Shown piece after piece: positions 1 to 61,040 of a DNA stretch of 61,040 nt. The stretch lies in assembly GCF_000311725.1 (NCBI RefSeq), contig NZ_HE978511.1, forward strand, positions 927,868 to 988,907, read 5' to 3'. Position numbers and translations under genes: made by a program. Source of the stretch: Robertmurraya massiliosenegalensis JC6 (GTDB taxonomy: Bacteria > Bacillota > Bacilli > Bacillales > Cytobacillaceae). How positions within the stretch are numbered: position 1 is the first letter of the stretch; each line of letters starts with the position of its first letter. The notes beneath the pieces were generated by a model that worked only from the letters and a program-made list of their open reading frames with translations, was not told the DNA's origin and did not search any database.

Positions 1-540
1 TCATGAACTCCTTCATGAAACATACTTTCCCTACAAATCCGCTCTTCTCTTGTCTCATGAACCCTTCATGAAACATATTTTCCCTACAAATCCGCTCTTC
101 TCTTGTTTCATGAACCCCTCATGAAACATACTTTCTCTACATAACCGCTCTTCTCTTGTCTCATGAACCCCTCATGAAACATACTTTTCCTACAAATCCA
201 CTCTTTTCTTGTCTCATGAACCCCTCATGAAACCTACTTTCTCTACAAATCCACTCTTCTCTTGTATCATGAACCCTTCATGAAACATATTTTCCCTACA
301 AATCCGCTCTTCTCTTGTCTCATGAACCCTTCATGAAACATATTTTCCCTACAAATCCGCTCTTCTCTTGTCTCATGAACTCCTCATGAAACATACTTTC
401 CTAGAAATCCGCTCTTCTCTTGTCTCATGAACCCTGCATGAAACATACTTTCCCTACAAATCCGCTCTTCTTTTGTCTCATGAACTCCTCATGAAACATA
501 CTTTCCCTACAAATCCGCTCTTCTCTTGTTTCATGAACCC
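1..540 (-). repeat. 53-bp tandem satellite array, left end
   Basis: Ten full units and a partial eleventh start at 1, 55, 108, 161, 214, 267, 320, 373, 425, 478 and 531, a period of 53 bp with single-base drift. Each unit carries two TCATGA palindromes separated by about five bases (ACCCC or ACCCT). With the flanking bases they form a hairpin such as TGTTTCATGA/TCATGAAACA. This is followed by a conserved segment containing CTACAAATCCGCTCTTCTC. The segment between hairpins is conserved from unit to unit, so this is a satellite and not a CRISPR array. The array runs off the start of the window, so its full length is unknown. The strand given is the one on which the hairpin loop reads AGGG, to match the array at the other end. 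No gene lies in it. Confidence 0.95.
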
Positions 541-573
541 TTCATCACCCCAAAAACTCAATCCACCAAAAAA

Positions 574-604
574 AGAACACCCACATTCCCACTGTGAGTG
601 TTCT
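574..604 (-). terminator. Intrinsic terminator of asnO
   Basis: A 12-bp inverted repeat (AGAACACCCACA pairing with TGTGAGTGTTCT, one G-T pair) is followed on the minus strand by a run of T. It lies 21 bp past the asnO stop codon. Confidence 0.85.
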
Positions 605-624
605 GTCCTCAAACATTCAACTTA

Positions 625-2475
625 CTATTCCACTATTTGAATATTGTACTCTTCAAACCAGAAGTGCAGCTGTACTAAATAAGCGAGTAGCTGCGGTCCT
701 GTCATTAACTGGCCAAACCATGGCTCTTTGAAGGCTGCACCCTCAGATTCAATAATGGCCTTTAGTTTTTCCTCATTGAAGAATTCGTAGAGGACGGAGC
801 TGCGATTTTGCATGATGTCTGCCAGCAGATTCTGAACCTCTTTCGTATATTTCGGATTGTGGGTTTTCGGATATGGGCTCTTTTTCCGGTAAAGAACATC
901 ATGAGGTAAGATTCCTTCCAGTGCTTTACGCAACAAGCCTTTTTCCCGGTTTCCGTACATTTTCATCTCCCACGGGATATTCCACACATATTCGACCAAA
1001 CGGTGATCGGCGAATGGCACCCGCACCTCGAGGCTTGCTCCCATGCTCATGCGATCCTTACGATCTAGTAAAGTCGTCATGAACCAAAGCATATTTAAGT
1101 AAAAAAGTTCTCTGCGGCCCGCTTCAAGTGGACTTTCCCCATCAAGCTTCGGCGTCTCCGCCACAGTCGAATTGAACGCATCCATCATATACTCTTTTAA
1201 GCTTAATTTTTGTTGCCATTTATCCTGCAACAGACTTTGGCGCTCATGGATGGAACGCATCCACGGGAAGCCTTCTCTTTTCAGATCGTCTGGACGATGA
1301 AACCATGGGTAGCCACCAAAAATTTCGTCTGCACATTCACCAGAGAGACCTACGACAAACTCTTTTTTGATCTCACGACAAAACCATAATAGCGATGAAT
1401 CAATGTCAGCCATCCCTGGTAAATCCCGAACCTGAACCGCTTCTTTTAAATGTTGTGCCAGTTCCTCTTGCGAAATGACAGAATCATGATGGATTGTTTT
1501 AAATTGCTCTGTCATCTGTTTAATATAGGCCGCATCTGAATTTGGTTGGAATTCATTTGCCTTGAAAAATTGGTCATTTCCCTCGTAGTCGATCGAATAA
1601 GTGTGAAGAGGCCCTTTACCTGTTTTTTCATATTCCATCGCGGCAATCGCCGTAATCGCACTTGAATCGACTCCCCCTGATAAAAACGTACAAAGGGGAA
1701 CATCGGATACAAGTTGGCGCTCAACCGCATCTGTAAATAAAAAGCGGACTTTTTCAACCGTTTCGTCGATTGAATCTTCGTGCTTTTCACTTTTCACATT
1801 CCAGTAACGCCAAATTTTTAATCCGTTACTAGCTGAAAGCGTTAATGCATGGGCTGGTCGTAATTCACGAACACCTTTAAATACGCCGTTCCCAGGTGAT
1901 CTTGAAGGTCCTAATGCAAAAATTTCAGATAAGCCCTCTCGATCAATTTCTGTCTTCATATCAGGATGTGCAAGCAATGCCTTTAGTTCCGATCCAAAGA
2001 TTAAACCTTTGTTTAATTCTGCAAAAAATAAGGGCTTGACGCCTAAGCGATCTCTGCCAATGAAGAGTTTCTGTTTTCGCTCATCCCAAACAGCAAAGGC
2101 GAATATCCCATTAAAAAAATCAACGCATTTTTCTTCCCATTCTATATAGGCAGTTAACAGAACTTCTGTATCAGAATGACCTTGAAACGAATATCCTTTT
2201 ATTAGGAGCTCTTTGCGAATATCCTCTGTATTATAGAGCTCACCATTGTAACAAAGAATGTAACGGTGACCATTTTTCGTACGTACCATCGGCTGTTTGC
2301 CGCCCTCTGCGTCGACAACGATTAGCCGCTTATGTCCGAAACCTACATGTGTGTCTGTCCATATATTTGTATCATCAGGACCGCGTTTTGCCAGAGTCTC
2401 CGTCATTTTTAGAACTGTTTCTTTTTCACTTGATATGTTTCGTTGAAAATCAACCCATCCGGTAATTCCACACAT
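625..2475 (-). CDS. asnO: Asparagine synthase, glutamine-hydrolysing (AsnO/AsnB type)
   Basis: Cytosolic enzyme of 616 residues that makes asparagine from aspartate, ATP and glutamine. The start is the ATG at 2475, which puts Cys2 (MCGITGW) at the N-terminus as the glutaminase nucleophile and leaves an AAAGGA ribosome site 8 bp upstream. The in-frame codons upstream would bury that cysteine. The N-terminal half is the class II amidotransferase domain. The C-terminal synthase domain has the pyrophosphate loop FLSGGVDSSAI near residue 265 and the GECADEIFGGYPWF motif. The length fits AsnO of B. subtilis (about 614 residues). The neighbours yisN, yisL and yisK match that locus, which is why I prefer asnO to asnB. 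In B. subtilis AsnO is tied to sporulation; I did not identify a promoter here. Confidence 0.9.
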   Translation of the reverse strand: MCGITGWVDFQRNISSEKETVLKMTETLAKRGPDDTNIWTDTHVGFGHKRLIVVDAEGGKQPMVRTKNGHRYILCYNGELYNTEDIRKELLIKGYSFQGHSDTEVLLTAYIEWEEKCVDFFNGIFAFAVWDERKQKLFIGRDRLGVKPLFFAELNKGLIFGSELKALLAHPDMKTEIDREGLSEIFALGPSRSPGNGVFKGVRELRPAHALTLSASNGLKIWRYWNVKSEKHEDSIDETVEKVRFLFTDAVERQLVSDVPLCTFLSGGVDSSAITAIAAMEYEKTGKGPLHTYSIDYEGNDQFFKANEFQPNSDAAYIKQMTEQFKTIHHDSVISQEELAQHLKEAVQVRDLPGMADIDSSLLWFCREIKKEFVVGLSGECADEIFGGYPWFHRPDDLKREGFPWMRSIHERQSLLQDKWQQKLSLKEYMMDAFNSTVAETPKLDGESPLEAGRRELFYLNMLWFMTTLLDRKDRMSMGASLEVRVPFADHRLVEYVWNIPWEMKMYGNREKGLLRKALEGILPHDVLYRKKSPYPKTHNPKYTKEVQNLLADIMQNRSSVLYEFFNEEKLKAIIESEGAAFKEPWFGQLMTGPQLLAYLVQLHFWFEEYNIQIVE

Positions 2476-2608
2476 TGTCATCATCCTTTCTAAGCTGAAC
2501 GTGTGTCTTTTGTTGATTCTTTAAGCAGCATTTCACCATGTACGTGTAAACATCATATGCTGGGCTCTTAAAATGGTTAATTGTCCTAATTAAGACAGTT
2601 TTGAAAAG

Positions 2609-60780: not shown

Positions 60781-60864
60781 TCAGTTTATCGACAAAAGGC
60801 ATCGAGATTCGATTCCTTTTGTTCATGAGGAGAGATATTGATATGAGCAAAAGAAAAGTATGTC

Positions 60865-61040
60865 TCATGAAGATCTCATGCGACATAAGTTTGATGGGTA
60901 CAAGTGATAAGTTTGTCTCATGAAGGGCTCATGCGACATGAGTTTGATGGTTACTAGCGATAAGTTTGTCTCATGAAGGGCTCATGAGACATGAGTTTGA
61001 TGGTTACAAGTGATAAGTATGTCTCATGAAGGGCTCATGC
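60865..61040 (+). repeat. 53-bp tandem satellite array, right end
   Basis: Units start at 60865, 60918, 60971 and 61024 (partial), exactly 53 bp apart. Each has the core TCATGAAGGGCTCATG, then about 30 bp beginning MGACATGAGTTTGATGG. In the third unit TGTCTCATGA and TCATGAGACA form a perfect 10-bp hairpin with loop AGGGC. The core and period match the left-end array read on the opposite strand; the inter-hairpin segments differ. A degenerate TCATGA occurs at 60823. The array runs off the end of the window. Confidence 0.93.

Follow-up and report, generated by a model that had tools for sequence, protein, structure and literature searches.

The window analysed here, a stretch of 61,040 nucleotides from Robertmurraya massiliosenegalensis JC6, opens with a row of palindromic units. 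The locus raises the question of what such a row is: a site read on the DNA, a source of folded RNA, or a satellite that multiplies without a role. The features needed to follow the argument are these.

1..545, no strand assigned: tandem array of 53-bp units, 10.3 units shown, continuing to the left through a 345-base N-run
51..75, no strand assigned: example dyad core of one unit, TGTCTCATGAACCCTTCATGAAACA (from the sequence)
104..128, no strand assigned: the only complete unit whose 10-bp arms pair without a mismatch, separated by 5 bases
574..604, minus strand: intrinsic terminator-like stem-loop of asnB, 12 pairs and a T-run (consensus match)
625..2484, minus strand: asnB-like gene whose 3' end abuts the array
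60856..61040, no strand assigned: second 53-bp array, 3.5 units shown (Tandem Repeats Finder)

Tandem Repeats Finder assigns the array at 1-545 a period of 53 bp, 10.3 copies and 91% matches. The array described in the initial annotation is real, but its period is not strict, one interval measuring 52 among intervals of 53 bp. The core of the unit, TGTnTCATGA-N5-TCATGAnACA, is an imperfect palindrome of 25 bp, followed by a linker of about 28 bp. With at most one mismatch, CATGA-N5-TCATG occurs 15 times in the window (10 times in 1-545, four times at 60866-61039 and once at 1474), against a mean of 2.67 and a maximum of 6 in shuffled windows, none of 100 reaching 15. The shuffles and control patterns rule out the dyad as a coincidence and bear out the earlier observation that every unit carries it. 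The paired arms that had also been described are fully complementary (TGTTTCATGA with TCATGAAACA) in the complete unit at 104-128 alone; the other complete units hold at least one arm mismatch, mostly at the base adjoining TGT or ACA.

The array is non-coding, with no open reading frame of 100 amino acids or more, and lies between asnB, a putative asparagine synthetase gene, and a convergent open reading frame past the gap. This gap is the 345-base N-run directly adjoining the array (L007 5524-5868); a further unit fragment lies beyond it, and the whole array would measure about 0.9 kb provided that the N-run is drawn to scale. Terminator-like stem-loops matched twice in the 2.7 kb scanned, where 1.7 matches were expected, the other match being the unit at 104-128, and the call of an asnB terminator is consequently argued from its position and not from rarity. 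Since this terminator-like stem lies between asnB and the array, the array is not the gene's sole terminator.

The JC6 assembly (G000 in our set; 4.96 Mb in 24 contigs) holds 32 tandem pairs of the CATGA dyad and 61 tandem pairs of TGTC-N19-GACA. The second array of the window, at 60856-61040, is absent from the initial annotation; its core is that of 1-545, its linker is unrelated, its centre is G-rich on the plus strand, and it runs on through a 647-base N-run (L008 4909-5555) and further units to about G000:C1:989.8k. Tandem 53-bp CATGA arrays with array-specific linkers occur at other loci on contigs C1-C4, and the genome also carries 52-bp arrays, with cores TGTCCTCATGA and TGTCCGAAT among the 50 of 61 tandem matches listed. 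N-runs interrupt four more of these arrays (L009, L011, L015, L018), and they occur too in fetched stretches where no array is visible (L010, L019). The runs inside several arrays suggest that the arrays broke the assembly. Both ends of the window coincide with N-runs inside 53-bp arrays, and array lengths are therefore not readable from this assembly.

Tandem repeats (satellites) of 52 nt in Bacillus were reportedly the subject of earlier work by Subirana and Messeguer in 2020. The window array is a member of the class that Subirana and Messeguer published in 2021 (PMC8161180) as 52-nt tandem repeats of Bacillus, described as non-coding repeats of constant length (51-53 nt) that form several families per genome, differ in sequence between species and contain short signals together with their reverse within one unit. 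The authors of that study put forward two explanations: a protein that polymerises with a constant pitch, and small RNAs. The class comprises repeats of 51-53 nt in at least four copies; the window array, at 53 bp by 10.3 copies, is intergenic as well as non-coding, other arrays of the genome have periods of 52 or 53, and G000 harbours several families of the same length (CATGA arrays of 53 bp, and CCTCATGA and CCGAAT arrays of 52 bp).

The same authors describe the class as having no sequence conservation, and in this respect the arrays studied here differ, a point that bears on the description of the class and not on membership. They share a 27-bp dyad layout, TGTC-N19-GACA, often with CATGA-N5-TCATG inside. 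Table 1 of PMC8161180 lists 27 consensus repeats, of which five contain exact TGTC-N19-GACA, where 0.02 would be expected, and two further ones hold GTC-N19-GAC. In 12 of the 27 the best dyad beats shuffles at p<0.02, and 11 of these 12 are odd-centred like the arrays here; the other 15 show no dyad at that threshold, so that the layout is common in the class while its universality is not proven. Many seemingly unrelated repeats of 52-53 bases thus share one palindromic layout. As far as our searches show, in a literature that included few subscription papers, the dyad rule is new, as are the turnover at two loci, the lack of strand asymmetry in RNA and the polarity lead presented below.

How far the layout extends depends on which form of it is sought. 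The tandem CATGA form was found in four of seven genomes of the genus and in 45 of 193 genomes of the family, with no control matches, and in nine of 397 genomes of an order-wide sample (two inside the family and seven outside), which leads us to reject an order-wide spread of this form. TGTC-N19-GACA repeated every 51-53 bp, that is, with 24-26 bp between dyads, was present in 138 of the 193 family genomes and in 17 of 25 genera, with up to 632 matches per genome; the reversed control pattern gave two matches in total, and about 0.7 are expected from base frequency. The initial annotation had held that units found only at this locus would favour a slippage product, and the genome-wide and family-wide searches find many arrays. 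Presence varies sharply by genus, from none of 13 genomes in g21 through 22 of 36 in g11 to 20 of 21 in g15 and all eight in g8, with more than 100 tandem matches in 16 of the 21 g15 genomes. Origin from a phage or plasmid was rejected, the window array having no match in plasmids or phages at E 1e-5. The tandem TGTC pattern appears in 34 stretches of viral contigs, each a single two-unit match, a count that by a rough estimate, with the size of the collection assumed, is near chance.

The pitch of the arrays is narrow. Across the fetched loci, one exact dyad follows the next after 50 bp once, 51 bp 14 times, 52 bp 269 times and 53 bp 40 times, so that 309 of 324 were 52 or 53 bp; these were counted over 35-70 bp in loci that had been fetched with a spacing of 51-53 (TGTC) or 47-57 (CATGA). 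A period varying freely had been named beforehand as a sign of neutral slippage, and within these search ranges intervals stayed at 50-53 bp. One interval of 56 bp is listed in G068, outside the fetched loci.

The arms vary in a paired manner. Numbering positions outward from the innermost centre pair (d=1), we aligned 53 CATGA arrays on the dyad, a set in which CATGA/TCATG at d=3-7 is fixed by the search and which includes both N-run sides of a single G000 array and the mis-registered group L011_1. Strong paired variation appears at d=10-13 and no pairing above chance at d=8-9, a result that counts against the protein-site reading given below. In 54 distinct TGTC arrays (62 before removal of eight duplicates), with d=10-13 fixed by the search, positions d=4-9 pair well above shuffles that ignore relatedness (z 3.8-7.6), and each position shows more than one type of pair. 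Within single genomes pairing in the TGTC arrays exceeds shuffles at d=6 (p 0.0035) and d=7 (p 0.013) only and falls below them at d=3, in a test of 32 arrays from eight genomes (one with a single array) over d=1-9 whose p values are uncorrected for nine tests. Given that the shuffles ignore relatedness and that the within-genome signal is confined to d=6-7, a small number of arm types inherited in common could account for much of the pairing. The innermost centre pair of the CATGA arrays avoids complementarity (4 of 53, with 20.5 expected), which would look like selection against a perfect palindrome; the TGTC set, at 16 of 54 with 16.8 expected, shows no such avoidance.

We consider it an even call that the arrays are helically phased sites for a putative dimeric DNA-binding protein. 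The unit would be a DNA-level dyad: its two half-sites, inverted and each about 11 bp long, would flank a 5-bp centre that in most cases is not palindromic, and the linker would bring the pitch to 52-53 bp, or five turns of B-DNA, so that equivalent dyads would line up along the same side of the helix throughout an array. The protein that reads them would most likely be a homodimer or a higher-order assembly, making contact with TGTC/GACA and with the inner arm, its copies binding next to one another from unit to unit. A cooperative site for a dimeric protein had been proposed in the initial annotation from hairpins facing the same side of the DNA. That argument is geometry and not evidence; what speaks for the proposal is the recurrence of the dyad and of the 52/53-bp pitch among arrays with unrelated linkers. 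A row of dyad sites is the simplest account of the pitch, the symmetric arms, the free linkers, the siting of arrays and their presence by genus. Against a single protein of fixed specificity, at least two arm types, CCTCATGA and CCGAAT, coexist in G000.

A palindrome could also act after transcription. Transcribed units would then form hairpins serving as small RNAs, sponges or RNase barriers, a function proposed in print for B. coagulans. In keeping with this, single strands of the units are predicted to fold at -5.2 to -10 kcal/mol (DNA parameters), three units out of four having z of -5.3 to -5.6 and the fourth -2.0; an array occupies the gap between the co-directional genes purF and purM; and transcription of 52-nt repeats has been reported in PMC8161180 and PMC8625621. 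A hairpin selected in RNA is expected to show more G-T than A-C mismatches on the transcribed strand. Across 32 arrays between co-directional open reading frames, the sense strand holds 88 G-T and 91 A-C mismatches, G-T being in excess in 16 arrays and A-C in 14, with two ties, and we reject an RNA hairpin under selection on this lack of strand asymmetry. No Rfam family matched at the gathering threshold in the window, so that a known structured RNA family was likewise rejected, and a role in RNA would leave the five-turn pitch unexplained. The equal mismatch counts, together with the terminator-like stem that asnB has of its own before the array, point to a signal at the DNA level or to a mutational by-product; the counts match a DNA-level site, yet they fit any explanation that does not involve RNA. 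We therefore regard function at the RNA level as quite improbable.

Mobilised palindromes offer another comparison. REP/BIME elements with RAYT (REP-associated tyrosine) transposases are multicopy extragenic palindromes near gene ends, traits that the arrays share, and RAYT-like matches occur in 157 of the 193 family genomes, 52 of them over the cut-off. The arrays differ in their five-turn tandem pitch and in that G000 has no RAYT match (NF047646 at E 0.001). Four genomes of the genus, G000, G003, G005 and G006, carry 61, 110, 139 and 78 tandem TGTC matches without any RAYT match. TGTC-N19-GACA was found in two of 30 fetched RAYT loci, both times as the same sequence inside the RAYT match, and outside the gene in none of the 30. 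As array-rich JC6 has no RAYT match and the units do not stand beside 30 RAYT genes, mobilisation of REP-type palindromes by RAYT is rejected as highly improbable. Within the genus, none of the four genomes that carry CATGA arrays (G000, G003, G005, G006) has a RAYT match and all three without them (G001, G002, G004) do, an exclusion that may be chance or descent; G001 and G004 hold TGTC-type arrays despite their RAYT matches. CRISPR arrays also alternate a palindromic repeat with other sequence at constant pitch. The linkers here are near-identical within an array, unlike the unique spacers of CRISPR, and there are many arrays per genome. The CRISPR comparison was made in PMC8161180 as well.

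The arrays are not placed at random with respect to genes. From a collection of 98 arrays, we assigned 66 to pairs of neighbours called by a simple open reading frame finder in lieu of annotation (24 had unclear and eight distant neighbours); 26 lie between convergent, 32 between co-directional and eight between divergent gene pairs. Because a circular chromosome must contain equal numbers of convergent and divergent pairs, 26 against 8 (p=0.003) represents a bias away from divergent promoter regions. Read as protein sites, arrays located mainly where at least one gene ends could carry a complex that compacts or constrains DNA or blocks read-through while leaving promoters untouched; insulation would be a further candidate role.

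Orthologous slots reveal how arrays change. The anchor was asnB, the G000 gene having its nearest matches at 90% in R. siralis and DE0196 (filed as B. methanolicus) and at 85% in R. kyonggiensis and R. yapensis. Its 3' slot holds a 53-bp CATGA array in G000, and among 26 fetched loci those of R. siralis, R. kyonggiensis and R. yapensis contain 52-bp arrays there. These three have different sequences, two of them without CATGA and with TGTC-N19-GACA; DE0196 retains only decayed units, and no array is present in the other 22 loci. In the gap between purF and purM, for which 30 loci were examined, arrays occur in G000 (53 bp) and G003 (52 bp) and are absent from G001, G002, G004, G005 and G006, of which G004, G005 and G006 are at least as close to G000 as G003 is, judged by the gene used there. 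As purF and purM have the same direction, this array probably lies inside one operon. It measures about 1.1 kb with its N-run in G000 (L018 5669-6799; G000:C4:562.7-563.8k), and a terminator-like stem-loop was seen by eye directly after purF. The two comparisons together indicate that slots recur, that arrays come and go and that the units change in sequence without losing their pitch or the geometry of the dyad. Copies would multiply and be homogenised by local duplication and unequal exchange, so that the sequence of the unit turns over at a fixed address. Alternating unit types, forming higher-order repeats of 104 bp at G018:C4:30741-31379 (L048) and L079 5883-6184, are a sign of duplication in blocks.

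That one slot holds different units at a like pitch speaks for the protein-site reading; the gain and loss of slots at both loci weighs against it and gives substance to its main rival, a neutral or selfish satellite that spreads by slippage and unequal exchange, occasionally seeds new slots and is tolerated at gene ends. Template switching that corrects imperfect inverted repeats would maintain its palindromy, and its 52-bp pitch would simply be inherited. Patchy presence at orthologous slots, decayed copies and the alternating unit types all suit such a satellite, as does the window array, in which unit identity does not fall with distance, and tolerance by itself would leave few arrays between divergent genes. 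It accounts less readily for the constancy of the 52- or 53-bp interval among arrays with unrelated linkers (309 of 324 within the search ranges, beside the single 56 in G068) and for the 19-bp spacing of TGTC and GACA, kept in 17 of 25 genera and in five of 27 published repeats. The uneven presence among genera is easier to understand with a trans-acting factor, though descent also fits. On balance we hold a neutral origin to be rather unlikely, yet it stays a serious alternative to phased protein sites.

A wider form of the protein-site reading can be put forward tentatively, as possible though on the unlikely side: TGTC-N19-GACA at five-turn pitch would be a site code across many relatives of Bacillus, read by one candidate family of DNA-coating proteins, with the unit sequence drifting while both arms change together and array polarity following the fork. 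The last element derives from the observation that in many arrays the two arms differ (GGTC versus GGCTT type). All nine arrays of called polarity in two genomes point with the fork (p=0.004), five in G128, where replichores were estimated by GC skew of samples, and four in G054, where the estimate takes dnaA, at the start of the contig, as reference and assumes an opposite terminus. Polarity does not follow the local coding strand (13 against 8, not significant), and a polarity set by transcription was rejected.

Polar sites such as KOPS/SRS and replication-arrest sites provide systems for comparison, and the arrays could in principle be polar sites of chromosome architecture, read in replication or segregation, with unequal arms and units pointing with the fork. 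The agreement of the nine arrays favours this role, while the sample is small and the arm classes were chosen after G128 and G054 had been seen. Polarity was callable in only 24 of 49 arrays, many being symmetric, and the local GC-skew comparison (15 against 4) is partly circular, as arrays themselves add skew, and includes orthologous pairs. Inspection by eye of the array positions listed for five genomes whose contig begins with dnaA (the list for G153 being incomplete) showed no bias toward origin or terminus, and clustering at either site was rejected. We report fork-following polarity as a lead on which wider tests are mixed, and consider an architectural role of polar sites a long shot. 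Segregation sites of the parS or Noc type are marked by a consensus palindrome that a ParB-family protein binds, and the arms of some units resemble half of parS.

If the arrays are sites of a shared system, one system with a definable site would replace the published puzzle of repeats with the same length and no common sequence. The shared dyad and pitch make the enigma of the 52-nt satellites testable in the form of a 27-bp dyad at 52-bp pitch, a shift of phase, and array-rich versus array-free genera. A protein found in this way would add a nucleoid-associated or chromosome-organising factor to those of a large bacterial family, one whose sites can number in the hundreds in a single genome; should there be none, the arrays would strongly exemplify satellite DNA that evolves in bacteria without a function.

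Bacillus tandem repeats of 20-21 nt are described alongside the 52-nt class in PMC8161180. They resemble the 52-nt arrays in spanning a near-integer number of helical turns and differ from them as direct repeats without a visible dyad. A 21-bp array lies in the purF-purM gap of G202 (L125 1373-1474), its unit lacking GAGGACA, the sequence that forms a half-site of 52-bp dyads. Another, about 1.2 kb beyond purF in G073 (L120 4087-4386), repeats GAGGACA about every two helical turns.
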